Source of the DNA: Physcomitrium patens
Lineage: Eukaryota; Streptophyta; Bryopsida; Funariales; Funariaceae
Direction: 5' to 3'
Assembly (NCBI RefSeq): GCF_000002425.4
Contig: NC_037258.1
Location: 17,596,470 to 17,660,469 of the forward strand
Length of the DNA: 64,000 bases
Of the stretch, positions 3,141 to 61,626 are shown one piece after another; position 1 is the first letter of the stretch; the number at the start of each line of letters is the position of its first letter. A program made the translations under genes and the position numbers. Under the pieces are notes generated by a model. The model saw only the letters and a program-made list of their open reading frames with translations. It did no database searches and was not told the origin of the DNA.

Positions 3141-3995
3141 TTAGTATTTTATTCCAAAATTTAATGTGCCTTTTATATATCTCATAGTTCTTTTCAAAGT
3201 TTGAATATGTGTAGGTCTTGGTTTAAAAAGATATTGTGCTAAACTGCTAGTAGCACAAGCAGAATCAAATCTAGAATTAACAATGGCATACATTAAACTA
3301 TTAACAACTTGAAAATAGAGGTAATTATGGAAAGTAATGTGATCTTCATTACTTAAATAAATTTTTGATTGAATTGGGGTACTTAATGGATTGAAATTCA
3401 ATATATTGAATTCATTAAGTTTATTTGTTAAGTATTTGGCTTGATGGAGGATGATCCATCCTTCTTTTCTATTTCTGAGTATAACATTACATAAAGTATA
3501 ATGGATTTCTCTTTCATCAGATATGTCAAATTCTTGCTAGAGAATATCTTTGATTTGTTGAATTAAAGGAAGTTTATTGCTCATAAGTATATAGTCATCA
3601 ACATAGAGTATAATTATGATAAAATCCTTATTATTTTCTCTTTTGATATATATGTTTGCATCTGATTCAAGGCATTGGTATTTGTGAAGGATTAAGTATT
3701 GATTTAATTATTGATGCCATGCTTTAGATGATTGTTTAAGATCATATAGGGATTTATTTAACTTATATAGCTTGTTAGTATGTATAGAAGGTAATCCTTC
3801 ATGAATAGTTATATAGATGTCTTCTTCTATAAAACCATTTAAAAATGTTGTTTTAACATCTAGTTGATGTATTTCCAAATTATGTTGAGCAATTAAAGCA
3901 AGAAAAACTTTGATAGAGTTAAGTTTGACTATAGGAGTGTATGTCATTGTGAAATCAATACCTTGAACTTGGATGAAACATCTTGCAACTAACAT
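3141..3995 (-). pseudogene. Copia reverse transcriptase domain, frame-broken
   Basis: The upstream half (3708-3995) contains the hallmark LEIHQLDVKTTFLNGFIEED and a KSLYDLKQSSKAWHQ segment. The catalytic YVDD tetrad is encoded at 3594-3605 and is intact, but stops and frame changes separate it from both neighbours. The downstream half (3141-3401) contains the conserved region around NPLSTPIQ and the SLMYAIVNSRFD block leading toward RNase H. It would copy element RNA to DNA in an autonomous Copia; here it is inactive by frame disruption. Confidence 0.88.
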
Positions 3996-5262
3996 TGCTT
4001 TATATTTGTCAATACTTCCATTAACTTTAGTTTTTATTTTAAAAATCCACTTTTAATTGATTGGTTTTTGATTAGGAGATAAATTTGTCATGTATCATGT
4101 ATTGTTCTTGTTTAAGGATGTAATTTCAGCATTGATTGTTTTTTGCTATTCTTAAACATCAACCCTTTTCATTACTTCTTGAATGGAGTTTGGAACTTCT
4201 ATATGAGTAGAAACAAGGTGGGCTTGATGATGCCAATTACATTATCGTTTATATTCTTTTCTGCCCTATATAGACTCTAACAATCTTGTGGTTGGTTGAA
4301 GAATTCTTGTTGGTCAAAAACAAGAAGGAAGATTTGGGGTTTGGAATGTAGAATAGACTTCATCATCTTCAAGAGGTAAGTTATCTTGATCATTTAGTAA
4401 TGATAGTTGAGAGAAGTCTTCTACGACATCAATGTGAGAAGGAGGTTGTTCTCTCACATTTGAAGAAGTACTATATATTTGGTTGTTGATCAAATACATA
4501 TGTTTTTTGTGGTGGTGGCATTGGTGGAGAAGACATGCCTTAAAAAAGAGGTATATTTTTTTCATTGGTCCTTATAGTTATTAAAGGATGTTTGAATAAT
4601 TCTAAATCTAGTTAGAGTTCTTTATTGTTCTTTTACAAGTATGTGGTTGTTTGTGGATTATATAGATTTTTATTGAAGATAACATCTCTTGAAATAAGAA
4701 TTTTTTATCTTTGTGTATTTATAAGTCTATAGGCTTTAGATTCTTTACTATAGCCTAGAAAGATAGCCTCTTGTAAATGAGAATCTAACTTCTTTTTTCT
4801 TTTTTTAGAAATGAATGCATGAACTTTATAACCAAATATTTTAAGATAGGATAAATTTGATTGCCATTTGTACCATAATTTAAATGGTATTTTGATAACT
4901 TATACAGATTTTATAGGGCTCCTATTTTGGAGGTAATTTGTTGTTTGAAGTGCTTCACCCAAAAAAAATTATGTAAGTTTGAATAGGATAGCATTGCAAG
5001 TACTACTCTTATTAATGTTCAATTTTTTTTTTTTCAAAAACACCATTTTGTTGTAGTATATAAGTTGTAGTATATTCTTGTTTAATACCTTCTTTATTAC
5101 CAAATCAAGTCATTAGATGTATATTCACCTCCATGATTAGATCTTAATATTATGACTTTGAAACTTATTTATTTTTCTACAATTTTTTTATATAAGATGA
5201 ATTTTTCAAATACTTTAGATTTATATTTCATCAAATATACTTGGCAATATCTTATTATTTCA

Positions 5263-5520
5263 TCAAAAATTTGTAATGAAGTAAGTACATTCTGAATGTG
5301 TGCCTACTTGTATAGGACCACAAATGTCAGAATGTATAAGTTTAAACAATTGGATAGCTCTTTGTGTACCTTGTGTAGGAAACTTTTCCTTATATTGTTT
5401 ACCTTCTATGTAAGGTTGGCATAAGATAAATTTTCTTTCATTAAAAGGTTCAATTTCCTTTCCCATAGTTTGTATTTGTTTGAGCCTTTGAGGATTTATG
5501 TGTCCTAGTCTTAGGTGCCA
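5263..5520 (-). pseudogene. Copia GAG-pre-integrase zinc-binding and integrase start
   Basis: The minus strand from 5520 reads WHLRLGHINPQRLKQIQTMG, the His-rich GAG-pre-integrase motif. It is followed by a Cys-containing ILCQPYIEGKQ and then LFKLIHSDICGPIQVG, which carries the first catalytic Asp of the integrase core. The rest of the integrase (about 4000-5260) is only patchily readable through many stops. This is standard Copia pol organisation between protease and reverse transcriptase. Confidence 0.85.
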
Positions 5521-5703
5521 TAAATCAGCTTTATTTAATTGTATTGTTGTTGAAATAGCAATTTGATGCTTGTTTAAAAGTATTGTTGTATCTAATTCAT
5601 ATAAATCAAGGTTTAATTTGTATATTGCAATGGTTTAACCAAATTGTTTTATAAGTGTAATGGTGCTAGCTCTTATGTGAATTTCTCTTCCTGTCTTATC
5701 TAA

Positions 5704-5937
5704 TTATTTGGCAGAGAATAAATTCTTTGCAAGTCCCGGTATATGTAATACATTAGGTATGATCTTCTCATCACCATTTGTAAGTTTGATATTTACATCA
5801 CCATGTCCTACTATTACGTATGATGTAGTATCATCTCTTAAGTAGACAACTTGTTTGTCTTCACTTTTGATGTATTTAACAAATCGTTCTAATTCATGAC
5901 ATATATGTTGAATTGCTCCCGAGTCTACGCACCACAT
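5704..5937 (-). pseudogene. Copia aspartic protease
   Basis: Contains the catalytic DSGA signature in MWCVDSGAIQHICHE, followed by the usual Copia protease spacing to NVLHIPGLAKNLFSAK, a conserved block at the protease/GAG-pre-integrase boundary. The open stretch is about 77 codons. In an active element this protease matures the gag-pol polyprotein; here the adjoining frames are interrupted. Confidence 0.85.
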
Positions 5938-5969
5938 TGAATTTGGATTTTCTTTAACTATAAGTACTA

Positions 5970-6281
5970 CTACATATAATATATTTGTTTTGTAATAACA
6001 TTTGTTTCTTTTCTATTATTACGATTTTCATTTGTTATTCTTATTTTGCAATCTTTGATCAAGTGACCTGATTTCTTGCAGAAAAAGCACTTTTTGTCAA
6101 TAGCAAAATTACTTTTTTCATGTGGTTTGGAGGTACTATTCTCTCCTTGAGAACTCCTTCTGAAACTCTTATTAAAATAAGATTTCTTATTTTTATTTTG
6201 AAATTTCTTACATACATATAAGGTTGAATTATTATTAGATGTTAAACTCATGCTTTTCATGAGTATTTTTTCATGGATCAA
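5970..6281 (-). pseudogene. Copia gag fragment with CCHC zinc knuckle
   Basis: A minus-strand open frame of 103 codons ends in a lysine- and asparagine-rich tail and carries a CX2CX4HX4C zinc knuckle, CFFCKKSGHLIKDC, encoded at about 6048-6089. That is the nucleocapsid-type RNA-binding motif of gag. The N-terminal part of gag lies in the broken sequence at about 6282-7110. Confidence 0.85.
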
Positions 6282-7127
6282 ATCTGTTATTAAGGATGCT
6301 AATGTGATCCCAAGCTACCTTCTTAAGGAGCTAATGAAGGATCTATAATTTTGAGGCAAACTTTTCATTAAAATAAGAATTGCTTCATCATTTGGAATTG
6401 ATAATCATGCTACCAACAATTATTCCATATGAGCTCTAAAAGTATATATGTGTTTAATAACACTATCAACTTCTTTCATTTTTAAGGTATATAATTTTTC
6501 TTTTAAATACATCTTAGTTACTACATTATGTGATTCAAATATTTTTATTAATTCTTACTATGGTGAATTTGTTGATTTACAAGATTGTATATGTGAAATA
6601 ATATTATTTTCTAGGCAATTTTTGATTATGGTTAAAGACAAGGTATCCTTGTCTACCCATGTGCTTATACTCTTACTCCTATGGTAGGTAAAGCTGAGAC
6701 TCCAGCAGCAATTTCAGCTATTATTGGTTCCATTGGTAAGCATTCTTCACTACTTACTATGGACCATAGCTTTTCAGCCTTGAAAACTAATGTTAATCTA
6801 TGTTTCTATATATTAAAATATAAACCATCAGATTTTGGAACATGATTGATGTCCACTTTTTGTGTCATCTTCAAAATTCTTAATTTAAAGTAGAATTGAA
6901 ATTATTTATAAATTTATTTTTGATCAATTCAATTTTATCTTTGCTTATGGATTTTATGTTGCCATTTTCAGGTCTATAATTGCTTCTCATGGTTTGAAGA
7001 ACTTCAAGTTTCTATTATAATGAATTGTATTGATATTATTCTTATTATAAACTATTTTGTAATTTCAGCAATTCTTCTTTTAATAAAGCATTCACCAAAG
7101 CTTTTTCTAAGAATCAAATTTTCTATT

Positions 7128-13301: not shown

Positions 13302-14614
13302 ATGATTTCGTGTGGATCACCCCTCGCAGCTCAGATTGGTTTTCAGGCTGCTAATCTGAGCAAAGACTATTACAAATCTGTGGCTAAGGAGCTCTATGAG
13401 GTGCTTATCTTTTCTGAAACGAGGGCTGCCGGGAAGCAGGCAAATAAAATTTTCATATATTCTATTACGAAATTGCCTTGAGCAAGTCAATTTGGCAGAG
13501 AATGATCAAAATCTACAAGTGAAACTCGATTTGTTGGCACTTGTTCTTCGAAATTTGATACACCAGCCCAATTCTGGGACTGTGTTATGCGAAGCTTTGC
13601 GAAACCTCCCATGTGTTAGTGAAGAGTTTTTTGCTAACCTGTGTAGAGCGCTAAAGCTTTCCTTGCCGGAGCAAATTGCTCTTGGAATTGCTCTTGCAGA
13701 CGCAGAAGATATTAGTCAACGCCAACAAGGTAAGCTCTAGTGAGGATTTTCTATTGCCTAGTAGGCTGAGTATGGATTTTCTATTGCCTGAAAACTTGCA
13801 ATGGAGTAAGTGGTAGGGTTTCTGTGTTGATTGAGAATTGATGAAGGGGCGAACGAAAGCGTTTGTTTTGGATTGGTGGCGTGCTCTCCATGTGCTCATG
13901 GTAGTTTATGAAAAAGGGCACTACCGTCTGTTCCACTGCTATTTTCACAATGTACAGTGTGATGCTCAAGTGATCATTATGGTTAATGTTAGATGTAAGA
14001 GGTTCTTCGAATGAGTGTTTCACATTTATTGGTTCTCGTACGTTTTTTGTTTTTTGTTTGTTTTTGTTTTTGTTTTTGTTTTTTTTTTTTTTTTTTAGTA
14101 TTTTTTATAATAACATTTAAAGCATGTTGTTTGTAATTGTTTTTCTGAGCTTGCAGGTCAAGCTTTTTTTGAGACGAAGGTTGAGGAGTGGTGTCAAAAT
14201 CCTATATCAGATTTGTCAGAAGATTTGATTGAAAGAATTTTATGGTGTCTGTTCTCAAATGAATCACTTCTGAATCTCCAGTCTTCCTTTTTTTAATTCC
14301 TTGTCTGCTTTGCAACCACTTGCATTTGACTCCTTGACACTCACTCCCTTTCTTAAGGATGCCGTCAAGGAAGTGGAGTGCTTAAGGTATAGTTCCTTTC
14401 TCTCTCCAGTTCTGGAATTGCTGTGCTCTACAATCGCTACTGTGATGTTGTTTAAAGTTAATGTGCTTTCTGAACATGGCTCGCATAAAGTGAGTTAGAG
14501 GAGGTTCAGAGCATACATGGGCCATTCTGTAATGTAATTTGCAGTGGAGAGCCGATATCTTCAAAATTGAGCACTTGGCACGTGGACATTGTTTAGGGTG
14601 CTATTAATCAACTG
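13302..14614 (+). pseudogene. NOT1 N-terminal blocks (exons 1-3), multiply broken
   Basis: The first block starts at ATG 13302 (MISCGSPLAAQIGFQAANLS, then KDYYKSVAKELYE) and later reads LLRNCLEQVNLAEND in another frame. Between them about 28 nt are extra relative to plant NOT1. The exon ends at 13729 and rejoins correctly at 14157 (GQAFFETKVEEWCQNP). A run of seven T near 14285 shifts the frame to an immediate TAA; the alternative frame restores NSLSALQPLAFDSL up to a donor at 14387. The block 14545-14614 matches the ...SSWNVD... region but contains TAG at 14594. Only about 158 bp separate these last two blocks, too little for the roughly 100 residues expected there. Confidence 0.75.
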
Positions 14615-14980
14615 GTGAGCTCCTGCTTTCTTTCTTTTCAATGCTGAGAATTTTCGTACAATCGATTTACTCAGGTAGTCATATCTCATAGTTATCTTTA
14701 TATGGCGTCTACTCTGTAGTTGCTACCTGTTTAGCGAATTCTCCTGTAATTGGTTCTTTCAGTGTCTCTTCTTTTTACCTTAGAAGGATTGAAATAAAGT
14801 TTGTAACGAGGATATGACTATGAGGGTGATACTAACAAACCTATTGAATGACGTCAATTTGGGGGGGGGGGGGGATGCAGCATACTTTGTTACAATTTGA
14901 TGCTCAAATTATTTACATTTTACAAGAATGTTCTAATGCTGTATTTTGATAGTATGTGACAACGTTAATATGTGTTTCAG

Positions 14981-16864
14981 AACCCGAGTTTGAATTGGAG
15001 TTTGATAGTATCGAGGCTAGATTACGAGGGTTTTTATCTGCCCGATGAAAACGCCTTCATTCTATTCATGACTATGTACAAACTGGGGTGTGAGGTAAGT
15101 TTCATGTGTGAAACGATATTTGATCTGTATTACATGTTTTTTGCACATAGATTTTCTTACTAGATTGGAGAACTGCATGTATCGGTGAAATCCCGGACTT
15201 GGTATAAATGTCGCATTATATTTATTCTTTTTGTGAGCAGGATCCTTTTCCTATCGATGCTATCTGTGGCCATGTGTGGAGAAATGATGAGGGCCAATTG
15301 TCTTTCTTGAGACATGCAATTTTATCGGCTCCAGAGGTTTTCAGTTTTGTTCATTCGACAAGGAAACTGGTACGCTTCAATTATTTTTGTAGTTCTTACG
15401 GTGAATACATTGCTAACTATGTTGAAACAACATCATGTGTCATTACCATCCTTTTGGTTTTAAGTAAGTGAAGAGATTCACACCGTACATATGTTTAGAA
15501 TTTTATCAGGGACTGAACCAGGTACTTGGAAGTGTGTGCCCATTATTAATTGTCAAACAGCAATGAATGCAAGGACCTGTGCATGGTAGTGACGTTTGTT
15601 GTTTCTCAGACTGAATATGTTTTTTGCGCACAGCCCACAGTACATCTTTGTCAATTCTCTTAGTGGTTGTCCTGGTTGGCACTGGCAGATGGAGACTTCA
15701 GAGAGAAAGTTGAAATCACCCAACTATGCCTGGCTTTCTCTAGATCTGGTTGAAGTACTTTGTCGCCTTGCAGAGACGGAGCACGTTGATGAGATTCGGG
15801 AGATTTTGGAATTTCCACGTCACCACTGTCCAGAGCTTCTGGCTCTGAGTCTTGTGCAGATCAACAGTGATGTATCTTTGAAGGTATGTTATTCTTAACC
15901 CTTGTATGATGCAACGGTGCACTGTCACTTGCCTGCACCTTAGGGACTATAGGGTCTTTGAAGGAGCTCTGTTTACACCTGTATGCAGCCACTTTTCGTG
16001 GTATAACCAGTATCTTTGATTATTACTATGGGAGTGCAGGGATCTCAACAAAGCTTTCAAGAGGAAATGCTTTCTCGGATACTTGGACCATTATTCTCAC
16101 AAGTTACTCTCAGTGCCGAGGGGGAGACTCTTGATCCTTTGTGGAGTAAGCTTTGGGCTTTGAACCCAGAAATTTTGAAAATGGAAATGGTGAATCTCCT
16201 CTTCTCGAAGGATCACTCTGTATACGACCAGGTCTTGCAGGTCTGCAAAAGCTTGAAGTTTTATTAGCGTTTATATAGCCTCCATTGAATGTTTTTAGTT
16301 AACATTAGTGATTTAACGTAATGAAACATGGATCTTGCTTCCTCTCTCGCTTTTTATAGGTGATCTTCTTGGCAGATTGTAGCACTTCAGGGTTTCTTTT
16401 GAACTTGTTGACAACTTTTTTGTAAAGTTTCATATTACCGTATGTGCTGGCCGTTGAATTCATATTTACTGAAATTATTGATGTCAATGAACTCATGTGT
16501 TTCTGCATGTCCTCAGATGTTCTCGTTTGCAATACAAGCATTGGATTCATTTCGTGAACGACTAAGCGAGTGGCCTGAATTCATTTACCATATTCTAAAA
16601 GTACGGCACATTCATGAAGCCCAGAATGACATTCTAGACTACATTATGAACATAGTTAAAGAAAATCAGGCAGTTGATCCAAGTACAGCTGTTAATGATT
16701 CTAATGTTTGCTCTGTGGTAGCACGTCCGATAATTGTAAAAGCCCCGACGAGCCTTTTGCAAGATACTCAAGTTGGAGTTCGCAATTTGAAATCAGCGGT
16801 TGACTTTGTCTATCCAGCTGGGAATAGGTTCTCTGGCTCTCAGTCACGATATCTATCAGGACAG
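14981..16864 (+). pseudogene. NOT1 HEAT-region exons 4-8, with a large gap
   Basis: Blocks at 14981-15094, 15241-15369 (DPFPIDAICGHVWRNDEGQL), 15689-15883 (AWLSLDLVEVLCRLAETEH), 16040 to about 16258 (LWALNPEILKMEMVNLLFSK) and 16517-16864 (SEWPEFIYHILKVRHIHEAQ) match plant NOT1 in order. Between the VCKSLK end near 16258 and the block at 16517 plant NOT1 normally has about 200 more residues, including the first MIF4G-like/TTP-binding part. The 258 bp present here contain no such exon. The donor after VCKSLK is also unclear. Confidence 0.72.
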
Positions 16865-17056
16865 GTGGGTGATGAATCATGCATGGGGAAATTAGAGACT
16901 AAAGCTGTTAGTTTTATGATTGTAGAAAACTTCTAGGGTTTTACGTTATTTTTTTACAATGATATGTAGCTTCTGATCTTTGTGCTCTCTTTTCCTCATT
17001 GTCGAGGTACTCCAGTTTCCTTGGTGGTCCTTACAATTGTTTGGTTCATCTTTTAG

Positions 17057-20000
17057 GGTTTAGATTCTTTTCTTCAAATATCTGCTAGGAGTTTCTCGTC
17101 AACGGCCGAGGCACAATCGCAGAACAGTACTCAGTCTGTTCCACAAGCATCTTTAGATTCCTTGTTATCGTTACAGTCAGGATTTGGCACAAATTCTCAA
17201 TCACCCTTTCAACCAATATTCCGTGCTACATCTGTAACACCTACACAATATCAACCTTCTCAACCCTCAGCTGAAGAGACGGCTAACAATGTAATGTCCG
17301 ACGCACAAGCGAAGCAAAGTGCGATCACTCCAAGCTCGCAACCCAGTCGAACTACTGAGACAGTAGTGTCATCACAGCATTCAAGTGCAGAGGCTACCAG
17401 CCTTTCTGCAGCAGCTCGTGATTTTCCTTTTTCAGCAGCCTCAAATGGTCACACAGCAAATCAAGCTCACATTCGGACTGGCACGAGGTCTGGAAATGCT
17501 TCAGGTGAGGCGATATTCGTATCAGTGCTGTATTTTGAATTTTATATAGTATGTGGTTGAGTATATTCCCATGGAACTAGGTTTAACGTTATGTTCGAAT
17601 CGGTCATCTTGAGCATGTTGAAACAAACGAATCACCTTCTAGCAGTGAACTTCCATTTCTTGTAACTCATTTGTAAGTGTTTGTTTTAGTACACGGAAAG
17701 ATGGGCCTGATTATCATCCCACATTACACTTTCAACCTAACTTGTATGTTCATTGGTAATTACCAGCCGTGCTTTCGATCATTCTTACTGCCCTTGGCAA
17801 CGTTTGTTTAAATTGTTTGATATATCAGGCTCATTTCGCATAGCTATTTCTGGATTTGGACATGCTCTTAACATAGAGACCCTTGTTGCTGGTGCTGGTA
17901 AACGGGACAAGCCTATTGAGGTATTTTACTTATACGCAATAGTACGAATTCTTACTTGCATGTGGAGACGTACTGAAGCTCCACTTCGTTAGCTGATATT
18001 CGGTCTATCTACTTTGAGATGTGTATATTGTGTACGCCCAACAATTGACTAGTCACTTTTGTTCCAAGTTTTAATGTTTTGATAATTGGCATCTGGTCAT
18101 TGCTTTGCATATCGTTAATTTTTCAGTAGATTTCGGCAACTTTTTCCATTTTTGTTTCTGTTTTTCTCAGGCACCAAGTTCAGAGATACAGGATAAAGTA
18201 GCATTTATAATTAACAACATATCTTGGACGAATCTGGAAGCTAAAGCGGAGGAATGTGCTGAAATTTTGGAAGAGTACTATCCATGGTTTGCCCAATACG
18301 TTGTGATGAAAAGGTAAGCATAGATTTTCTTTTGTTTGTCATGTGCGCCCTTGCAAGACTTTGTTATTTACAAATCAAGGCACTCCTTCTGGGTCAAGAA
18401 AAAGCTTCTTTCTGTTCCTGGTATGACAATTGTATTTTGATTGACAGAGCAAGCATCGAACCAAACAATCATGACACGTATATCAAATTTTTAGACAAGA
18501 TGGATTCAAAGGAGTTGCACAAGGAAGTTCTCAGGACAACCTATGAAAACTGCAAGGTAAAAGCTTGAAAGAACTTTTAACTTTTTGGTGCACTCTGGTT
18601 AATAAAACATGTCAAGTATGCTGATTTTTGAAATTTTAAATACGCTCTTGTAACTTACTGCTTTCCTTTGGAATGTGAGTAGATCCAAGTGTTCCTAGGT
18701 GTCCCTAAAAACGACGTTATCATGCTGCTTGAGTCTGCAGTATAGGTATGTTTTGGAAAATTTCTTACTATGGGGCATTTTTTTGCCAGGTATTATTCGC
18801 CTCCAACTTGATTAAGACTCACTCGGAGGAGAGGTCACTTCTGAAGAATTTAGGAAGTTGGCTTGGAAAGTTAACCATTAGGCGGAATCAAGCATTGAGA
18901 GCCCGCGAACTTGACCCGAAGTCTCTAATTATCAAGGTACTTTTGACATCTGAAACTCAAGCTGCATAAGCTGCTTTTGTTTCATTAGATTTATGTGTGT
19001 AATCAAGTGGTGCTCCACATGCATTTTAGTAGAAACGGCTTTTTCTGGAACGTTTTGAATCACTCTTACAATTCTTTTGTTTTCACCTAATTTTTTGGAA
19101 GGTGTTCAAAATAAGCTTCCTCAGCATATATGGCGTGCATGAGCTTTCGAAACTTCAAACGTTGTGGATAGTTATTTTGTACTGTAGTCAGAGGCTGATC
19201 CCTTTTCTATTGTTTAACAGATTACTCGTGTCGTAATTAGATAACTTTGAATGAATCGTCAATGTTTATGATGAAGCTGTTCATGTCACTAATCTGATGT
19301 GAATGATGTTTACCTCATTCCTTTTGTGTGCAGGCATATCAGAAAGGACTTATGATTGCAATAATTCCATTTACATCTAAGGTGCGAATTGTTAGAGCTA
19401 GTCACATGTCTTGAATAGGGAAATGATTGAGAATGAAAATACAATCTTGCAAAATGAGTACTAATGGAGTCTGAAGCATAAATTGATACGGTTCCTTGAG
19501 ACAACGAATTGTCGGGCTGCAGAATTGTAGTATGTTGTTTTACAATTTGTATTTTCTTCACTTCATACGTCTTTCACAGGTACTGGAGTCCTGTAACCAG
19601 AGTCTGGCTTACCAACCTCCGAATCCATGGACTATGGCAATACTAAGCTTACTTGTGGAGATTTATAACTTACCTAATTTGAAGATGAATCTCATGTTTG
19701 ATATTGAGGTAATGTTTCGACACAGGTTCTTACCATTTGAAATCTGATTCTTCTAAAAATGTATGTAGTCTGCATGGAATCTCTAGCCCTTCAGGTTTTT
19801 ATATACTTATTAATTCGTGATAAAATTATATGTCTGCAGGTTTTCATTTGCACATGTTAATCGCTGTTTTAATTTTTTTTCGACTTGGCTTAAGAAATTT
19901 CAACTAATATTTTTTTTCTAACATTTTCAGGTTCTTTTCAAGAATCTAAATGTAGACGTGAGGGAAGTAAAGCACTCGAAGCTTCTCGAGGGACTGGAGC

Positions 20001-20578
20001 GTGAGGTGGAAGGGAATCCTGATTTTTCAAACAAGGATCCAATATTTTCCCAGTCACCGTCACCAGCCTTGTCGGCAAGCAGTTCTGCACCTACTGTGCC
20101 TGTACCATCTCTACCTCAGCAGTTGGACATGCCTCCTGAACTTCCGAGTGTCATCCAGCCTGCCACATCATTGACTTCATCGGTAATTGCACAGGTTTGT
20201 TTGCTGTGGGCGTTGCTTCTGCAACTATAGACGTTTCTTTTTTTAGTTTTTGTATTATCTCCTTCATGATCCAAGAGGCTTTTGTTCACAAGAGGTGTTG
20301 TTTTCAGTTAATTGGGGAAGAAAGACCATCACTTGCACTGGAGCGCGCTCAGAATGTTCAAGCTTCGTCTACTCCATCTCAACCATCGTTCCCGTCCACT
20401 CAAGTACGTTATCTCCGTCAGGAATTTCTGTTTGCTGCATCTTTTTTGGGTATGTTTGTGGTTTCGGATGCTGACATAATATTGTTGGACAGGCGTCTAT
20501 GGCAATTCCTGATTTGACATCTTATGTTGTTCTAAATGCGAAATTAGCTGGACTTGGTCAACATCTCCAGCTTGCGAG
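17057..20578 (+). pseudogene. NOT1 central blocks incl. CAF1-binding MIF4G domain
   Basis: A Ser/Gln-rich low-complexity exon (17057-17504) is followed by the CAF1-binding domain spread over exons at 17829-17920, 18171-18313 (DKVAFIINNISWTNLEAKAE), 18448-18556, 18790-18936, 19334-19381 (AYQKGLMIAIIPFTSK), 19580-19708 (YQPPNPWTMAIL) and 19931-20194. Then come 20308-20403 and 20493-20578. All borders have GT and AG and the phases join without stops, so this part still looks functional. In the family it recruits the CAF1 deadenylase. Confidence 0.85.
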
Positions 20579-20805
20579 GTACATACATTAATGACTCTTA
20601 TTTTTATCAGTTAGTATGAAGCAATCATTTAATCAACTTCTGAATCTTCTCAGAATTGACTTCAATACACTAGCTTGAATTAGACTTTTGTAACACAGTA
20701 TTGACTGGATAGTATTAATTCACTGAACTACGTACTACGCTAGACTGTGAGAATTGCATTCATGCAGCGTTTAAACTGAAAAATGAAGCATGTTTTGGAT
20801 TGCAG

Positions 20806-21564
20806 GGTTGTTCCTGTGGCCATGGAGCGCGCTATTAGAGAGATTATAAGCCCAGTAGTAGATCGTAGTGTGACTATTGCTTGTACGACTACTCGGGAGC
20901 TTGTGATGAAGGTTAGTTCTATATCTTTCTATTTGGGTGTTTGAATAATACATCCGGGGAGTGCAATACGAGTAAAACTAGGTACTTCTGCCTTAATCTA
21001 TTGTTGCATGCAGAAGATAAGAAGTAAGGATTATCCACAGTAGCATGGCACAATATTTGACTTTGCGCTCTCCTATCGAATTGTCTCTAATCTAATGTTA
21101 TTTTCCTGTAAGATTATGCAATGGAATCGGATGAAAATCGCACGAACCAGTCTGCTAATTTGATGGTAGCTAGCCTGGCTGGCAGTTTGGCCCATGTTAC
21201 CTGCAAGGTATAGCACAAGAGCTTTGACGTTCAGGTCCCTTGCCTCTGTAGTGATAGAAGTAGTAGTTTTGAGCATCTGTTTGCAATTTTTTATGATGTG
21301 CACTATCGTTTATTACTTGAATTACTTTCAAGTTGCTATTCTCTTCTGAATTCTGATTTTTAAATGTAATGCCAAAGAACTCGTCGCCTCACTTGTTGCT
21401 TGTTTCTTTGGCAGGAGCCTCTGCGAGTTGCCATGGCAAATTATTTGAGAACTTTTCTGCAGACAGCTCTCGCCCAAGATGTGCTAGAGCAAGCTGTAAA
21501 TTTAGTCACAAATGATAATCTGGACTTGGGTTGTGCCGTGATTGAGAAATCCGCAACTGAGAAG
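20806..21564 (+). pseudogene. NOT1 DUF3819 (CNOT9-binding) blocks with a lost splice acceptor
   Basis: The exon 20806-20911 reads VVPVAMERAIREIISPVVDR and ends TTRELVMK. Family members continue K-DYAMES. Here the matching sequence is preceded by ...CCTGTAAGATTATGCAATGG, so the expected AG before GAT (21110-21111) is AA. The nearest AG, one base later, shifts the frame. The exon body to 21207 (LMVASLAGSLAHVTCK) and the next exon 21415-21564 (NLVTNDNLDLGCAVIEKSA) are otherwise conserved. Confidence 0.8.
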
Positions 21565-21714
21565 GTGTGGTTCCCATCTTGGTACATTGGGGATTAGTTT
21601 TCAGGTTATGAGAAAATGATGTGTGTTTTTAATTGCAGCTGATGGAAGCTATCAAAGATACTCTCTTTATTATTTGCTATAAGGAATGTTTATGTTACTA
21701 TGGAGTGTTGACAG

Positions 21715-23191
21715 GCGCAACGGGATTTAGAAGAGGTGATTGCACCCGCCTTCGCACAGCGAAGAGCCGACAGAATACGCACGGGTTCTGCTTATCATGA
21801 TAATTATATGTTTACAAATCAGACTCTAAGTAATCTTCCTGAGACCCTGCGTCCAAGACCAGGACAATTATCCATTACACAGGCACGGGTGTATGGGGTA
21901 TGTGTCAATATTTTGTAATTTATGTAACTTTTTGAATGCTGTGATCTCAAAAGTCCTGTGTGAAATGCTCTTTGCTTTTATCACATTTACGTCTTTGCTA
22001 TTTCGAACCGAATGTAACTCCATGTTTGTTGATGTGAATTGATTTTGGTAGGATTTTAGATGTTATTCATTGGGTCGTCGCATTCAGGACTAAATATTAT
22101 TCTGTTGAGTTCCGATGGGTTGTTTGTTGGCAGGATTTTGCTCGATTTCCTTGGCAGAATCAGTCAAGTCACGCACCTGTAACGATGGCAGGTCCTCCAG
22201 GTATCACTAATCTTTCAGGGAGAGGCATTTATTCTGTTCCAGGTCGTGACCCTGGTGCTAATTCTCGTGCGTCATTGAATGGAAATCAATCTTCATCAGT
22301 ACTTGGAGCAACGGCTCAAGTTTCAGATCCATCATCTGATGAGATGGACATTACAGAACCATCTCCGCTAAGGTTTGCTTCTATAGTATTTTGTCTTCAC
22401 AGAAGTTTTCTTCTAGTTCTCATTTAAATATTTAAGTGAACAGGGACTGTATATAATTGTAGCTTGAAAGAAATTGTATCTTCAGTGATGGTTTAAGATC
22501 AACCTTATGATATGGGCGTAACGCATTGAGTCGTATCCTGTATCATTACGTGGTTAGGGATCTTGAATTTTCTCAGAAAATTGATACCAAGTGGCTTGTG
22601 TGCTCTATTTCATCGTGCAGTTTCAGCTCGATGGCTTGTGCTGGTGGAGCGGACGCACAAGCTAGACTCTCTCAAGAGACCTCCCTCTCCTTCCCCATAC
22701 ATTCCAATTCATCAACTCCGCCTCCAGAATTCAATGTGGTGGAGACCCCAAGTGCCTCGAAGGTATGATGGTGATTCCTTCATTTCAGGATTTGAAACCT
22801 GTGAAGCAGGGCAGAAGAATCGTATTATAAGGTGGTAGTTTTAAAAATTAAAAAGCGAATTATCCTACATTTTTTTCTTTTCCGTTGTGAAATTGTTCGT
22901 CACCTGAATAAGGACTGCAGGGTATGCTGGGATCTACACCGTCTTCTACGCCACCTTTGCCTGCTGATTATGTTGGATCTACTGCGCAAGAGCCTTCTCT
23001 AACCACTGGAGAGGCTTTGGAGAAGTTCAGTGTAGTGGCACAAAAGGTATGCTCAACGGCATTCACTTGTGGAGGCAGGTAGCATGAATATTATATATGT
23101 CTACTATTAACAAGCGACTTGGTTAGTATGCACTGTTAGTTGGTATTGTTATAGATTACCAGAGTGATTAACCAGCTAGGTTACTAGAAAA

Positions 23192-23279
<88 letters not shown>

Positions 23280-25240
23280 CCACGAGGGTGTTCAAATACC
23301 TTGAGTTTATGAGGGTGTGATGCCATCAAGTCTGCAGCGATGTTTGCCTGAAAGCCCAGGTTTCACGTACAGATGGTTATTCCCTACTGAGGTGATCCCT
23401 GTGTAGTTGTTGATAAAATTTACCTACAGTGAAGTTTGTGGTTTAGGGTAACGATTTTCTTTGATCTGGTAGAGAGCCTGACAATGGTGGTGGTTTTCAG
23501 TTGGATCTTTTACTCTTAAGGGCAACCTCGTTTAGCTCTTCGTCTCCTCGCTTGATGATGAAGTGCGGGTAGGACTTGCAAGTTCATGCTTTATACTGTA
23601 TTTAATTAATTGAGTTGAATATATGAAGTGTTTTCAGGTTTAATTCAATTGATATTAAAAAAAAGTCGTGTTTGGGTTTTACATCTGATGTGGGGTTTCC
23701 TTTGCAGGCCCTGGCAAACGAGGTGCCCGAAATCATTTTGCAGTGCGTTAGTAGGGACGAGGCAGCTTCAGCAATAGCTCAGATGGTCAGCTGCGGATTT
23801 AAACCTGGAGACTTATGTGTGCATGATACTGTTTGAAACCGTTGCAGTTCGTGGTGGTGCGTCACATGTGTATCTGTCTAATTGATTGAGTGCTTTTTTG
23901 GGATTAGGTTTTTAAGCGTCTATATGACAACACTACCAGCCAAATACATGTACTAGTCCACCTCAACATCCTGGAATCCATTCGAGACGTGTGCAGGAGA
24001 GTGGTCAAGGAATTGACTAGCTGGGTAATTAAAAATCTTTCTTCCTTTTGTAAATTGCTTGTGTTATTAATGTCGATCCCACATAATGGTGTTAAAGGTT
24101 TGATCATATGAGCAGTCTTGATTGAGTGTTTTCTATGACATTATTGTGAAATTCGTGTCTATGCTTGACATCAACGTTCTTTTGTTTTCAGGTTGTCTAC
24201 TCTGATGAGGATCGCAAGTTCAATCGGGAAATTACTGTTGGTTTCATCAGATCTGAGTTGATCAATTTGACAGACTACGGTTTGCACCTGACAAAGTGTA
24301 TTGATGGAGGCCGGAACAGTAAGCTTCATATCATCGTTGAAAGCCCTGGTGGATTGGTAACTGCTGTTTTACTTTGTGTCTCCTATACCTGTTGGGTTTC
24401 AAGAGATGATGAGCCCACGGTAGAATTGAGCCAATAATCACCTTATTTTTCTCGGCCCAAGACAACCTCTAATCTGGTGTTCATTGTTGTGGGATACAAA
24501 GCGTGTTGGGATTTCAAACTTATGAATTTCAACTGCATTGTGCAGATGACGCAGTTTCTTTTGCAGCGTACCTCGTGAAGACGTGTGTCATTGAAGAGGC
24601 AGGTGTTACTAGCACAGAGTTTTACAATGTGATCGAAGCTCTTGGGAAGGTGAGCTTTAGCCTTGCTTTTTCACTCCCTGAATTGACGTGTAGATTCTTA
24701 TTGGAGTTCAATCGTGATTTATGTTGAGCCACAGTTATTTTATCCTAATCATAATCACTGCTAGTTTGAGGCTCACAGTATTTCTATTTTATTTTTCATT
24801 GCGGTTGCAGCTGGCAGCACGACCAGGCACTCCTGAGTCATTGCAGGAGTTGGTGGAAATTGCAAAGGGCACACCAAGTACAAACAAAGATGATAAAGGC
24901 AGGCTATCTAAAGAGAAAAAGGTGTGGCTTCTTTCTGCAGTGACTTAATTAAATTTATTAAATTAAAGATCTCATCATCACTTTATTCATAGATTTTTCA
25001 TTTGTAAGACAAGAAGCTTCTTGTTGTTCTTTTCTTTCGACATCGTATCATATTTGTGTGTCGATTCGTAACTTTTCCCACTTTGGATTGTTTGAATAGG
25101 AGTTGGCTGAGAGTCATTGTTTGAACTCGGAGACTTCACACCCTGTCACTGTTGGAAGCGAGTCCAGGCTGCAAGAAGGATCAAACATGTCATTTGCAGC
25201 CATTGATATGGTTGCAAAGCTTGTTGTTTTGTTGGTGAAG
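21715..25240 (+). pseudogene. NOT1 linker and C-terminal-half blocks, with one lost segment
   Basis: Exons at 21715-21897 (LPETLRPRPGQLSITQARVY), 22134-22372, 22621-22762, 22921-23046, 23501-23568, 23708-23785 (EVPEIILQCVSRDEAASAIA), 23908-24024, 24192-24318, 24546-24649, 24811-24921 and 25100-25240 follow plant NOT1. In 23501-23568 the first half reads LDLLLLRATSFSSSS, but the LDDEVR end is in another frame. Between 24921 (SKEKK) and 25100 (ELAESHCLNSE) roughly 70 residues normally present (the ...FREQV...LLKGDD... region) are absent, and the gap is only about 180 bp. Confidence 0.78.
23199..23280. repeat. Long (TA)n tract inside a NOT1 intron
   Basis: A nearly uninterrupted TA dinucleotide run of close to 80 bp, bounded by GCAA on the left and TTGC on the right, so the whole block is a palindrome. 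It lies in the intron between the blocks ending at 23046 and starting at 23501, next to the frameshifted exon. Confidence 0.9.
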
Positions 25241-25549
25241 GTAAACTACTCAAGAGTTTAACCTTGTGTCCTTTGTGTTGGTTAATTTTGCTTCATTTCT
25301 TTCTTGTATTTCTACTTGTGCTGCTCATGGAATTCTGACCTATTCATCCTGGCTAGTCCAGTGTTCCACGGTTCTATACCTGCATTATACTCAAAAAACT
25401 GGGAATATTGTGTTAATGTCATTGGATGGTATTGAGCTGATTAATTCTACAAAGTTACATGGACTTCGAGATTGTGTGTACTTTATTATTTAGTTCCAAG
25501 GATTATTTTTCCTGTACTTTAATTCTAATGCTGGTGTGTTGGTTTTCAG

Positions 25550-28381
25550 TACTCATCTGAGCCATCCCTGAATAAGGTCAATCTTCTTACTAGGGTAAGT
25601 TTAAATCTCGATTTCAATCTCATTCAACGGAGGCTTTATCCTATTCATATTTTGTTAGGCTTAGCAAATAACTTTGCTATGATTAGTGTATCTTGAGATG
25701 TCTGGTAGAGTCTTATTTTGACGCACTTACGGTCGTGTTGTATCACCAGGTTTTAAACGTGACAGTCCGCACGATGAAAAGGGACCATGACCGCAAAGCA
25801 GGGTTCCATCCTCGCCCATACTTCCGCCTCTTTGTCACATGGCTTATGCATTTTAATTTAACAGATTCCACCTTGGATTCAAGTAATTATCAGGTATTGA
25901 GGGGATCTGTCGTTTTATTTTCCTTTTCCAGTTCCCGAAAAAGAGAAAGCCTGTTTCATTCTTGCATGTGCAGTATGATTGATTTTTGACGAAGTTTTAT
26001 TTTGCAGGTTTTGCAAGCTTTCGGATATGCATTTTTGACTTTGCGACCGCTCGATGTGCCAGGGTTCAGGTATGCGCGACGCTCGTATAATTTGGATTAA
26101 GAGAACTTTTAAAAGTTTGTGTTTTTCAGTATACGAAATGGTGATGCTTTTGGGGATTCCCGTGCAATGTTCACTGATATTATAATCCTATGTTTCTGTT
26201 AGTAGCTTGGCGTGGTTAGAGCTGATTAGTCATCGAACATTTATGCCGAAGTTATTGTTGAGCAACGCGCAAAAAGGATGGTCTTTATTTCAGAAGTTGC
26301 TAGTTGCACTATTCAAGTTTATGGAACCATATCTTCGAAATGCCAACCTAAGTGAACCTGTAAGTATGCATGCCTGAGCACGTAACTTGTTAAGCATTAT
26401 CGTGTAACTACTCCCCCACAAGCTTGCCAAGGTATCAAGACACTTGAGTTCCAAACAAATATACCAGCTGTGGGTGAACCATGCGCTGTTGCTTCATTTG
26501 GACTCGTTTAATATGACAGCTTCCTTTCCTTCCAACTATAATCATGTTTATTTGGTTGAGCTCAATGTTCTTCGATATGGGCTAAGCACGCACATTTTCT
26601 TGTATGTTCGGCTTATAATTTGTACATGTATCTTGTATGTCCATTCACCTGGGACTAAATCTGATCATATATATATAACCTGGTTTCGGCAGGTGCGACT
26701 GCTTTATAAAGGCATGTTGCGAGTTCTTCTTGTGTTACTTCACGATTTCCCAGAGTTCTTATGTGAACATCACTTCAGCTTTTGTGATGTCATTTCGCCA
26801 TCTTGCATTCAAATGCGCAACTTGATTCTAAGTGCGTTTCCTCGCAACATGCGTCTTCCTGATCCATTTACTCCCAATCTCAAAGTAAGACCCCGAGAAT
26901 TACTAACAGATGTAGTGTTTATTTGGGTTCTCTACTTCAAGCGCGACTTTGGCTTTGTTATTCTGTAAACCGTTTACGTGTTCTGACAACTGGAAATGTT
27001 TTGAAATGATTAACGTGAGGTGTTACCGTTTGAGATTAACTAGCTCTTGTTTGTCATTTGGGGGTTCTAGGTTGATTTGTTGCCAGAAATATCTCATTCA
27101 CCTCGTATTCTCTCAGATGTTGAAACAGCGTTGAAATCGAAGCAGCTGAAAAGCGAGGTTGATGATTTCATTAAGGTAAGCATGAGTGTTAATTCTAAAA
27201 AATGGCAAATACAGCGCAAATAGACGCCCTACGCCTCAGTAACTTACATATTATCTAACCTCTTCGAACTTGAACTGAGCAGAACCGGAATCAACAAACA
27301 CTCACATCCATGGACTTGAAGGTACGATTGACTCTGTTACCTCAGGAGGCGCAAGCTTCTGGCACACGCTACAACGTGCCTCTTCTTAACGCTTTGGTGC
27401 TTTACGTCGGAATGCAGGTATAGCAGTGGCGTTTTTGTGGATCTTGTCAACAAATTCAATGTCTTGAATTGTTTTGACCTGAGTGTCGTCATGTTAGATA
27501 TGTGGAAGTCTTTGGTTTTGGTCAAAAGTAGCGTATACAGTGCATGAAAGTATTGTATCAATGCTGCTCTGATTTATTATAGACGTTTAGTTTCTAAGTA
27601 GTTTGATCAAGTTTCTAATCACTAAAGACGACTCTCTTGTGAGTAGGCTATTCAGCAACTTCATAGCAAGACATCACAGCAGGTGGCAGCACTCACGGCT
27701 CCTATTACCCACAGCGCTCCAATGGACATATTTGAGCTACTTGTCAATGACCTTGACACCGAAGGGAGATATCTGTTTCTGAATGCTGTGGCCAATCAGC
27801 TGCGCTACCCCAACAATCACACATATTATTTCTCGTGTGTTCTTTTATTTCTCTCTGCTGAGGCATTAGTAGTAAGTACTCTTCCTCTGCATTCAAGCCT
27901 CTGGCTTTATTTACGATAGCCGAACACGTTAGTTTCACGTTTGAGGGATCAGTGCTAAGTGCTCACATTTACGCTTTGTGTTACGTTTTCAGGACATCGT
28001 CCAAGAGCAGATTACTCGTGTGCTGCTGGAAAGATTAATTGTCAATCGGCCACATCCTTGGGGCCTTCTTATTACCTTCATTGAGAGCTCATCAAGGTAT
28101 ATGCTTGTCTACATTGTTAATAGGCAATCATGCAACCCTTAATTTTTTTGCTGGGGTGAAGCTATGTTGAATGTGTTGAGTTTGTGAATTTTTTTTTGCA
28201 ACACTGACTAGTATGTGGCTTTCAGAATCCACGTTACAGCTTTTGGACACACAGCTTTACACGTGCTCCAGAGATTGAAAAGCTATTTGAGTCAGTGGCT
28301 CGATCATGTATGACTACTACATTGAAATCTAGCGATGATGATCTGTCCGGAATTCCTCCAGCTGACCGCCTGAAAGAGTGA
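25550..28381 (+). pseudogene. NOT1 C-terminal domain (NOT2/NOT3-binding) blocks
   Basis: Exons at 25550-25594, 25750-25893, 26008-26069, 26203-26359, 26693-26884 ([20 protein letters not shown]), 27071-27175, 27283-27417, 27647-27871 ([20 protein letters not shown]), 27993-28096 ([20 protein letters not shown]) and 28226-28381 give the superfamily-homology domain almost completely. The only visible lesion is near 28086: family members read FIELIK-NPRY, while here GAGAGCTCATCAAG has two extra bases and breaks the frame before the last exon (NPRYSFWTHSFTRAPEIEKL). The stop is TGA at 28379-28381. Confidence 0.82.
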
Positions 28382-43308: not shown

Positions 43309-44343
43309 ATGGGCAGTTGCGAGTGCGCGGAGTCCTCCCTGTCGAGTGCAATGACCTTGCAGGAGCAGCGGGAAATGTTGAGATCGGTGTTTCCTGGCCG
43401 GTGCAGCGACAACAGCCAGGACTACGAAGACGATGACGAAGGTAGGAACATCCAAACATGTCATGTATCGAGCCAGTTCGAGGATGCAATTAGATAGATG
43501 TCTATTACATAATTCTAATGGTATGTGAGAAGTAGAAAATGTTCGAGGCTCCTAAGCTTCAGAACTTTTCATAATCCTGTAATAGAAGCACTCTGAAGAT
43601 GGTGAAGAGCTGCATTTGCTGTGTTGGTGGAAAAACGCGAAGTCCCTAGCTTGACAGACGTAATGAATAGAGAGTATGCATCAGCCTTGTGCTCTCATTG
43701 AGTAACGCCACTTACAATTAGCGCTGGATATGGGGTTAAATAACGCTAAGGAGCTACCAGAAGCCACGATCGATAATGAGCGAAGCCTTAGATTTTGTGT
43801 GTATGTGGGGGGTGTTCAGGATCCAGCCAGAAGTTGAGATTTACGAAGGCCCAATTGCGTGTGCTGGAGGATACCTTCCAGAGGCTGCAGCGGCCAAATG
43901 CGCACCAGAAGAGCACGCTAGCGATGGAATTAGGCGTCCAGACTAGGCAAGTCGAGGTGTGGTTCCAGAACCGCAGAGCCCGAGGCAAGGCCAAGCGCAA
44001 CGAGTCTGACTGTGAAGTATTACGGCAGCGCTGCCAGGACCTGATTGTGGAGAATCACCATCTCAACTACCTGATTCAGGTACATTTGTACCCACCTGCG
44101 CATCCAATGCTCTCTATCTCTCTCCCTTCTTCCAAGAGAAGTGTATTCTCGTTTCTGTTAGAAAGGAGGTTGCACTCGCTACGAATGTGCTGTAAGCGAC
44201 AAGGTCATCCTCATAACTCGTGTGGTTGCCTCTGACCGCAGAGCGAAAGGATGGGCTATGACAGCCGCCACCTAACAAGCAACGGCGGGCCGTTACTGCG
44301 GATGGCTCTATGCAACAACTGCAAGAAGCTCCGCAACTCATGA
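43309..44343 (+). CDS. HD-Zip II-like homeodomain leucine-zipper transcription factor
   Basis: Three exons, 43309-43441, 43820-44079 and 44242-44343, join in phase with GT..AG borders to a 164-residue protein. The acidic N-terminus (DYEDDDEG) leads into a homeodomain at about residues 46-106 with KLRFTKAQLRVLEDTFQ and the recognition-helix core VEVWFQNRRARGKAKR. A leucine zipper follows directly (SDCEVLRQRCQDLIVENHHL), with three leucines spaced by seven, the HD-Zip arrangement. The DCE..L context and a final Cys pair in ALCNNCKKLRNS resemble the HD-Zip II CPSCE tail, but the motif is altered and the zipper is one to two heptads short. The family represses or activates growth genes as dimers on CAATNATTG sites. 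Subfamily II is an inference; an early-diverging or shortened member is possible. Confidence 0.82.
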
Positions 44344-49801: not shown

Positions 49802-51072
49802 TCACTGAAGAAGAGGAAGAAGCGTACAATAGGGTGATGGCAGAAATTGTACCCCTAATGCACCGTTGAGCGGCTTTAAAGGTTCACGAAGTGCACTGTC
49901 TAGACTGGTGACAGATCCTTGAGAATTTACTGACTCACAAGGACTGGACAGTCTGGTATTTCCCATCAACCTCCCACCCTTCTCTCCTTTTACTTTCAAG
50001 TTCAAATCCAACTCAAGCTGCTCGTCTCCATGAGCTGGCACGAGTAGATCCTCATGCACTCCTCCACCTGAGCGTATAGGTGCCGGCGGGCTTGCTTCCA
50101 CTCGGGCCCTGACCCGTCGAGAAGCTACAAACGCCCCTGTAGTTCTCTTCTTCAACTCGAAAAACTCGTGCCCAAGCTCATCTTTGTGAAACTCTCTATC
50201 CGACTTTGACTGGGTCCAGCTGTCACATTGTCTATGCTCTTGACAGATGAAATTCGGTTCCGCGTTTTGTGGCACGACTGCTTCCAGATGCTGACCACTG
50301 TTGTTAGCCTTGTCACGAATACTGCTTGGGAATTCTTTAGACTCCTGGTAGTTTGCTTCAGGCAATCCAATTCCAGGGCTCATGGTGCGTGTATCCAAAG
50401 AACTCATTACGGATGCGTTTGAAGATAAAGTAATTTGAGTAAGGTCATCGACTCCCTCAGCTGAAGGAATAGAGGAGTTCCCACACATGTCCAAAGCTGG
50501 GAAACATGGTGTTGTGTAATTCGGGCGAGGCGGAGGGCGAATGAGGCCTCCTTTGAGAACTGTATCCACAGCCGCCTGACAGATTTGCCAATTTCCACTC
50601 CAAAGAAGGCCCATTGCGCCAAGCACTGGATTTACCGTTCGCTCACAGGCTTCATACAGCAAAGACTGAAATAATGCTGCACATCAAGGAGTAAAGAAAA
50701 AAAACCCCAATCACTTCCAAATAACCTCACGACACACACATAGTCCAAATTCATCCCACCGTTCTCAAAGATAAACAAAATTAACTCTAAAATGAGAAAT
50801 TAGATCGTCCAAGCGAACAGGTGAATCTGTAACCGTACGAAACATTGATTCAACAATGTTTCAGTAGTTGCAACAGGAATCAATGCATACCAGATCGTTC
50901 ATTTTCTGACACAGCGCTAATAAAGCCCATGAGCCCTGCCCGACCGAAGAACTTAGCCACTAACACTGGCATGCCCTTGAGCTTCAGGGGTCTGAATCCA
51001 CTGCAGGCAGAGACGTAGAATACAAGTGTCACTGCACCCTCTGCGCAGCACACGGCAACCGTTGCAACTCAT
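49802..51072 (-). pseudogene. Class II LOB-domain (LBD) transcription factor, frameshifted
   Basis: Exon 1 (51072-50891) starts ATG with MSCNGCRVLRRGCSDTC, the class II LBD zinc motif CX2CX6CX3C, and ends with FFGRAGLMGFISAVSE. Exon 2 (50676-49802) continues [20 protein letters not shown], then [19 protein letters not shown], and a long Ser-rich tail with an EAR-like repressor motif LELDLNL (49995-50015). The 214-bp intron has GT..AG borders and sits at the conserved class II position; phase G|CA joins perfectly. Near 50967, however, codons before and after are in different frames (GHA, then VLVAKFF), equivalent to two missing bases, and the starting frame ends at TAA 50953-50955. Class II LBDs act in nitrogen and anthocyanin regulation in flowering plants. 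The downstream 291-codon frame is fully open, so the break is recent or an assembly error. Confidence 0.82.
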
Positions 51073-54969: not shown

Positions 54970-55450
54970 ATAAGATGTTGCCAAAGACATGAATCACAAA
55001 GAATCTAATGACCAATATACTCTTGTATCACTAAAAAAGAATAAATAATTACTCAAAGATGGTAAAATATTGAACTAAAATGGCTATTTTAAAGGAAAAA
55101 AATAAATATACAAAAATAAAAATTAGAAATTATAAACTCTTGAAATATGACTAAGAATAAGAAAGATATTGATAAGAATAAAAAAAGACTTTACTCTTGA
55201 TTCTATATATATTATCTAATTAGGACCTATATGGCTATTTTCTATAGAACCTTCAATATGTATCTAACTTGCAAGACATATATCAACAAGCAAGACAAGT
55301 TTCCTACATGTCTACTACATGGCCAACTTGTTAGCTAAGTTTTCAATCTACTAATCACTTATAAATACATGTAAAATCAAATCCACATCTATTAAGCTTC
55401 TAAGAGACTTTTCTATAAAATATTATCAAATCTATTTACTTCTATTTATT
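54970..55450 (-). repeat. 3' LTR of the Gypsy element (approximate)
   Basis: Aligns by eye with about 61815-62290. Shared strings include TCACTAAAAAA..AATAATTACTC, ACAAGTTTCCTACATGT, TGGCCAACTTGTTAGC, AAAATCAAATCCACAT and TATTATCAAATCTA. The left boundary is uncertain and may extend below 54970. Confidence 0.7.
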
Positions 55451-56699
55451 TTTATCTATTATTTTAATTTAAGTAAATATATATGTTAGTGACATTAACT
55501 CTCTTCTATGTACAAGTTCCACAAAGAATAGTAATCACATGTTGAAAAAGTCCAAGATGCAACAAATTGTATTTGCCACATGTTCTAATCATTGTTCCTT
55601 TTGAAAGAAGTTGATAAGTCTTTTCAGCCATTATTAGTATCTTATATCAAAGCAAGAAGACCATCTAGATATTAAATCATTTTTTAGGCCTTTGTAACTT
55701 TTTTTAAATAAAAAATTTGAAATACTATCAAAGGTGGTTCCTACCTCTATTAATATCATCAAATATTGGAAGTCTCTTTGAAGGTTGTGATATCAAATGC
55801 ATTGTATTTTACCATCAATTCAAAGAAAAACATGTTGTTCTTAAGGGTCTTCATCTTTATTATCTTGTCTTGAAGGTTGTAATAATTTTAATGTTTTCTC
55901 CAATAATTCTTGAGTTAAATCTATTTGTTGTTAATTCTTTATTTTTTAGCATAATAAATAAATAAAAACCATAAATAAAGATAAAAGATAAAATATAATC
56001 TTTATAGAATATTATTTTTTATAGCAAATAATTACTTAACTCTTTATCTTGATTTTGATGGATGTTGTTATTAAAAAGCATCAATCTTTTTCATTGTATT
56101 TATAAGATTCTTGATTGGTTGCTATATATGTTCACTAATATCATACTTGTGCTAATATATAAGATATTCCAATCTATTTTGGCATTGTCCAAAATTTGAG
56201 ATTTTTTTGACTTCAAATTCTTAATTATTATCAATTTCTAAAAAAAAAGTGGCATTTGTTTTCTTTCAAGTATATCAATTATCTTGTATTGCTCAAAAAG
56301 AGACATGTAAAGTACATGATAGATTTTTAGAGGCTTTGTTAGATATAATTAATAAGCAATTAGATTGATATATTCACATAAAAAAAATATTCTAAGTCTA
56401 TAATAATCGAACTTGTCACTAAGACAATTAATCTTGATATTATAATGACATAATTATATCTTAATGCTAACATGGAATTAAGATTTTTCTTTGCAATAGG
56501 TATCTATATTGATTCTTTGTTGTTCTTGAGTTTTTTTAATTGTACCTTCATTGTTATATGTAGCTCTTATTAATATTTTTTCTTAAATCTTTTCCTACAA
56601 GATTTTTAATTTTTGAGAAGTCAAAAGTATCAAGTTATTGATAATAATTATAATTAATATAAAAATATATTTTTAAAGTAAAAGAATGTATTATATCCT

Positions 56700-61613: not shown

Positions 61614-61624
61614 CTCTAATACCA
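61614..61624 (-). other. Primer-binding-site-like motif of the Gypsy element
   Basis: The minus strand reads TGGTATTAGAG, one change from the tRNA-Met type TGGTATCAGAG. It sits just inside the right-hand LTR, as expected for a minus-strand element. Confidence 0.6.
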
Positions 61625-61626
61625 AA

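Follow-up and report, generated by a model that had tools for sequence, protein, structure and literature searches.

What becomes of a second copy of NOT1, the mRNA-decay scaffold gene of the CCR4-NOT complex, is the question raised by a locus in the moss Physcomitrium patens. The stretch analyzed, called the window here, comprises 64,000 nucleotides (nt) of NCBI RefSeq assembly GCF_000002425.4 (contig NC_037258.1, positions 17,596,470 to 17,660,469 of the forward strand), and a NOT1 paralogue occupies window positions 13302 to 28381 on the + strand. The locus is already annotated as protein coding in one source. With a probability of roughly 72%, we conclude instead that it is an unprocessed moss NOT1 duplicate with its frame broken in nine places, which probably coded for nearly its whole history and is probably a young pseudogene today. 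If so, an essential scaffold gene can duplicate, persist for a long period with both copies coding, and only afterwards lose one of them; here the loss looks young enough for its order and effect to be readable still.

The duplication itself is confirmed by a full-length NOT1 in the same species. This protein, P0002, has a frame of 2520 amino acids (aa) and 79% identity to the locus copy in the best local alignment. Its entries are named "uncharacterized protein [Physcomitrium patens]" and CCR4-NOT transcription complex subunit 1, its sources are ncbi, nr, uniref, eukprot, metaclust, and lgn, and it is found on 94 contigs, the longest of 20.70 Mb. It carries seven NOT1 Pfam domains, including CNOT1_HEAT, and TTP_bind at 27-183. 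P0002 thus supplies, by protein search, the second, intact NOT1 that an earlier interpretation of the DNA (the sequence-only reading) had proposed to look for. No third P. patens NOT1 is named beyond P0002 and the annotated product of the locus, P0001, in two protein searches that covered the best 120 matches, with truncated names and many entries lacking an organism name, and were not genome-wide. In a tree of 21 proteins, made up of the locus copy and 20 of the 120 listed NOT1 proteins, the locus copy pairs with P0002 (SH-aLRT 97), P0003 joins next outside, and the branches to the locus copy and to P0002 measure 0.15 and 0.082, respectively. The stem of these three proteins is long (0.53), which marks NOT1 as a fast-evolving family in this moss line; judged from these comparisons, the scaffold appears to have evolved unusually fast in the line of P. 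patens. P0002 is about 56% identical to the NOT1 proteins of Ceratodon and Sphagnum (P0006 and P0010), which are 65% identical to each other.

A tblastn alignment of P0002 places NOT1 homology from the ancestral start codon at 13302 to the stop codon at 28379-28381, with sister residues 1 to 2519 aligned. The sequence-only reading had called the locus a full-length relic of about 42 exon blocks. Forty-two blocks were delimited, and "full-length" describes both ends well; it fails for the interior, where 380 of 2520 codons are gone. Nearly all of the GT..AG borders survive. A GT donor stands at all 41 blocks that have a donor (blocks 1-41), and the acceptors of blocks 2-42 read AG in 39 of 41, with the AG of block 6 at 15689 and that of block 20 one base further in. 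At block 3, the AG as placed falls inside the exon; homology begins at 14498, so the block's own acceptor was removed together with the first of three deletions described below.

The domains that remain are best described on P0001, a UniRef protein of 1964 aa. Its match to PF04054, the Not1 superfamily homology domain, has E = 5e-125 and 417.6 bits over positions 7-343 of 372 (window 25861..28085, +), the end of the domain being lost by a frame shift. PF16415, the CAF1-binding MIF4G domain, matches with E = 1e-83 and 280 bits, and the corresponding region (17915..20005, +) has an open frame and 94% identity to the sister. These E values show that the NOT1 homology at the locus is not due to chance. 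PF12842 (DUF3819) gives 154 bits, with its region at 20568..21771 (+); its description as the CNOT9-binding domain takes the partner's name from PMC8009681. Protein Data Bank (PDB) chains of CNOT1 match P0001 residues 634-846 and 946-1156, and chains named CCR4-NOT subunit 1 cover the retained parts of P0001 with the exception of the ARM/connector. P0001 retains CAF1_bind, DUF3819, the ARM/connector, and most of the Not1 domain; CNOT1_HEAT is absent, and TTP_bind is reduced to 133-185 of 189. A tRNA scan and an Rfam search at gathering scores over the whole window returned no matches.

When scored against P0002, the ancestral frame shows six frame lesions, of which five are indels and one is an in-frame TAG, as well as three deletions. 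All of these breaks lie on the + strand, and the sequence-only reading, with at least five frame lesions and three missing segments, had anticipated them correctly. From the ancestral start codon, the frame stays open for only 59 codons (13302..13481, stop at 13479-13481). In block 1, a stretch of 40 nt stands where the sister has 4 codons (lesion 1, 13413..13452, net +28). In block 2, a run of T at 14288-14294 is one base too long, and a TAA is in frame (lesion 2, 14288..14296). Deletion 1 follows (14387..14497) and takes sister residues 211-283 (73 codons) along with the splice acceptor of block 3, which also contains the TAG (lesion 3, 14594..14596). Deletion 2 (16241..16516) removes residues 542-770 (229 codons), and with them HEAT and most of the TTP-binding domain. 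Block 20 is one base short at its start, at 21112-21113 (lesion 4, 21109..21116), and block 26 has 68 nt where 66 are expected (lesion 5, 23501..23568). Deletion 3 (24922..25099) removes residues 1956-2033 (78 codons) and keeps the frame. Finally, 2 nt are added at about 28086 in block 41 (lesion 6, 28084..28096), and the part matching the last 55 sister residues is read out of frame in the P0001 model. A permissive tblastn search for remnants of the three deleted segments at their joints gave known exon ends and chance matches only.

Evidence on selection comes from a comparison of the two copies site by site. Conservation was taken from 117 other NOT1 proteins. After removal of columns in which under 60 of these have a residue, of positions with gaps or X in either copy, of sites whose ancestor could not be inferred, and of sites changed in both copies, 1573 of 2113 aligned sites remained for the comparison. 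P0003 ends early, and where it has no residue the majority served as the ancestor if it reached at least 95%. The locus copy has changed at 23/570 conserved sites versus 5/570 for P0002 (sign test, p = 0.0009) and at 128/1003 variable sites versus 65/1003. With domain borders set by the analyst, the difference persists at conserved sites in the still-open C-terminal domains (15/470 versus 2/470, p = 0.002); the N-terminal arm has 8/77 versus 3/77 and the linkers 0/23. Both copies change less at conserved sites, and thus the locus copy has been under selection for much of its life. That selection appears, on the site counts, to have weakened in the retained C-terminal domains as well as in the lost arm. 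Decay confined to the N-terminal arm was considered and not adopted: five of the nine lesions fall in sister residues 1-846 (p = 0.15), P0002 has the same slope from arm to C-terminus, and the C-terminal domains of the locus copy are relaxed too. The sister gene, the tree, the kept introns, the faster evolution, and the relaxed constraint together bear out the earlier suggestion that a duplicated NOT1 is being lost here.

How recent the loss would be can be estimated from stops and splice sites. Between the indels there is 1 stop in 2117 codons of the ancestral frame, and no GT or AG dinucleotide is substituted in the retained introns. Under the analyst's mutation model, with 39 introns scorable, full neutral decay of 1% substitutions per site predicts about 4 stop or splice hits, and a wholly neutral branch would predict about 29. 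One stop and no splice hit therefore limit fully neutral decay to at most about 1.3% substitutions per site (K, the number of substitutions per site, below about 0.0126, 95%). The five frame-shifting indels fit K = 0.006-0.011 for assumed indel-to-substitution ratios of 1:6 to 1:12, and the replacement excess alone leads to K near 0.014 (0.006-0.023). The estimate from stops and splice hits and the one from replacements overlap at K = 0.006-0.013, and a recent death after a relaxed phase fits both; that so few stops and splice hits are present likewise suggests that full loss would be recent. With a rate of 9.4e-9 per site and year, the neutral phase would have lasted no more than about 1.3 million years. 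The rate is rough and was obtained by halving a Ks (synonymous substitutions per site) of 0.85, which PMC1952061 gives for 45 million years.

The history that we propose would begin with duplication at the DNA level after the split from the P0003 line, yielding two NOT1 genes. Both would have stayed coding, with the locus copy evolving about twice as fast, until the protein as a whole was no longer kept by selection and lesions built up. The indels and three deletions would have removed the N-terminal arm, a portion of the connector, and the frame of the last exon, leaving CCR4-NOT function to be carried by P0002. A transcript with an early stop upstream of many introns is expected to be cleared by nonsense-mediated decay. 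If spliced in the ancestral way, the transcript of this locus would stop after 59 codons with about 40 introns downstream and would probably meet that fate.

The annotated model gets past the lesions by a path of its own. P0001 can be rebuilt letter for letter from 41 window exons (13396..28313, +; 1964 codons, stop TGA at 28311-28313). Its start ATG at 13396 lies downstream of, and out of frame with, the ancestral ATG at 13302. The model then takes a short piece of block 2, skips block 3 with its TAG, and crosses deletion 2 by an in-frame splice from CAG|GTCTGC at 16240 into the exon beyond. A microexon of 10 nt (21014..21023, +) compensates for the missing base of block 20, which would reach a stop 16 codons further on if spliced at AG|21113 without the microexon. 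Block 26 is skipped, and the model ends out of frame past block 41. Among the best 120 matches listed, it is given from UniRef only, with no contig, and its cluster has 11 member sequences. That it is missing from ncbi, nr, and lgn points, though weakly, to low expression. When a 643-aa C-terminal piece was used as the query, no separate cluster near 100% identity appeared among the best 120 matches; identical fragments may sit inside the P0001 cluster, so this result is no evidence of silence. P0001 illustrates for annotators how a model may mask a probable pseudogene by skirting its lesions.

Several observations weigh against loss of the gene, and they are also what an alternative with a shortened but working NOT1 would draw on. 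P0001 is encoded exactly and threads its 1964-codon frame through the locus with GT..AG at 40/40 introns. Fewer stops and splice hits are present than the excess of replacements would lead one to expect, with 1 seen against about 6 predicted at K near 0.014 (P = 0.01-0.02 by transition weight) and 6.1 at K = 0.015 (P = 0.016). The locus copy still changes less at conserved (23/570) than at variable sites (128/1003), and among its conserved sites those of the C-terminal domains have changed less often (15/470) than those of the arm (8/77; p = 0.009), as is also the case for the sister (2/470 and 3/77); these counts suggest past and possibly some present constraint. Lastly, the 11 cluster members of P0001 could be annotated transcript isoforms. 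The locus would then still make a NOT1 without the N-terminal arm, an account that we find unlikely; starting elsewhere, skipping exons, and using a cryptic donor in frame together with the 10-nt microexon would take it past each lesion. Its product would keep CAF1_bind, DUF3819, the ARM/connector, and positions 7-343 of 372 of the Not1 domain, that is, the parts for binding CAF1, CNOT9, and NOT2/NOT3. It is similarly doubtful that such a product would compete with or modify CCR4-NOT. The sequence-only reading had raised the related possibility of a transcribed relic that could interfere with the complex. We consider somewhat less likely again the specific form in which a living, N-terminally truncated scaffold of 1964 aa, made by way of the microexon and bearing the CAF1, CNOT9, and NOT2-NOT3 sites, would compete with full NOT1 and retune the moss complex. 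There is a precedent for the binding of a NOT1 fragment: PMC8009681 describes a piece of Arabidopsis NOT1, containing MIF4G and DUF3819, that binds NOT9B in competition with phyA. Against a shortened product stand the relaxation of the very domains it would retain (15/470 conserved sites changed versus 2/470 in the sister), a start codon downstream of an out-of-frame ATG, the restriction of P0001 to UniRef, and the fact that a gene predictor would seek such a path in any fresh pseudogene.

The remaining explanations fare worse. The lesions might be assembly errors, or private to the sequenced strain with the gene intact in most P. patens plants, and the single-base insertion in the T run could indeed be a sequencing error. 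The long insertion and the large deletions could not, as neither the 40-nt stretch nor the TAG nor deletions of 73, 229, and 78 codons are base-calling errors, and the UniRef P0001 sequence is found letter for letter in the window, though it may come from the same assembly; we regard this explanation as improbable. A processed, retroposed pseudogene is refuted by the 40 retained GT..AG introns, as the sequence-only reading had argued. Recent disablement of a duplicate likely explains why the frame is broken, why the domains are relaxed, and why a full-length sister exists, and loss of one copy is an ordinary fate for a duplicated gene.

A second NOT1 appears not to be peculiar to this moss, and the premise that NOT1 is normally a single gene was not supported. 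Among the best 120 matches listed, pairs of NOT1 clusters whose contigs differ in length are present in at least 13 other plants: Sphagnum jensenii, Tasmannia lanceolata, Telopea speciosissima, Protea cynaroides, Aquilegia coerulea, Xanthoceras sorbifolium, Thalictrum thalictroides, Manihot esculenta, Aristolochia californica, Bauhinia variegata, Reevesia pubescens, Hibiscus trionum, and Cornus florida. The count was read from cluster names and the lengths of the longest contigs, and haplotypes or split assemblies may explain some of the pairs. Given these plants, a decaying extra NOT1 is unusual and not a new kind of thing. In PMC8562791, NOT1 duplication is stated to be unique, to its authors' knowledge, to Aconoidasida, a class of parasites; the moss pair and the plant pairs contradict that statement and place NOT1 duplication in land plants too. 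Literature on NOT1 in Physcomitrella/Physcomitrium, or on NOT1/CNOT1 pseudogenes, paralogues, or duplicates, contained nothing on this locus, judging by titles and the beginnings of abstracts.

The rest of the window holds a few other features. Downstream of the NOT1 copy, a LOB-domain gene (49802-51072, -) appears broken, with its cysteine block and the remainder in different frames and 2 nt missing at GCCAGTGTT|AGTGGC compared with relatives. It matches P0241 (UniRef A0A2K1KHA9_PHYPA, 318 aa) at 100% over 90% of the query, and P0241 begins at an out-of-frame ATG at the lesion, an annotation pattern like that of P0001. Two frame-broken genes within about 38 kb may indicate regional gene decay. 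The same neighbor was used to look for a whole-genome-duplication origin, which was neither supported nor refuted: P0250, the best chromosome-placed match that carries the name P. patens, lies on a 17.77-Mb contig and P0002 on one of 20.70 Mb, and P0242 is a closer match than P0250. A conceptual homeodomain protein of 164 aa (43309-44342, +) has three exons and ends soon past the homeodomain; we take it to be possibly a truncated HD-Zip gene. A degenerate Ty1/copia-like retrotransposon (3708-6314, -) has RVT_2, GAG-pre-integrase, Pol beta-barrel, and zinc-knuckle in separate open reading frames, and a 162-nt direct repeat at 1695 and 7140 (89%) may represent remnants of its long terminal repeats. 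The last 10 kb (54001-64000) have a GC content of 19-25% and a longest stop-to-stop open reading frame of at most 85 aa.

Known systems help to place the moss locus copy. As described in PMC8562791, Plasmodium has two NOT1 paralogues, NOT1 and NOT1-G, one of which has no detectable TTP-binding domain, and in this respect it resembles the moss. Both Plasmodium copies are functional, however, and the moss copy has lost the intact ancestral frame that would mark a specialized paralogue of the NOT1-G kind. The closest reference within the species is P0002, sister to the locus copy in the tree, which has kept the 2520-aa frame, CNOT1_HEAT, and nearly the whole TTP-binding domain. With unprocessed pseudogenes in general, the locus copy shares its kept introns, a full-length parent copy, several frame lesions, and relaxed constraint. 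It differs from them in that stops and splice losses are very few given how far it has diverged, and in the survival of a long alternative frame.

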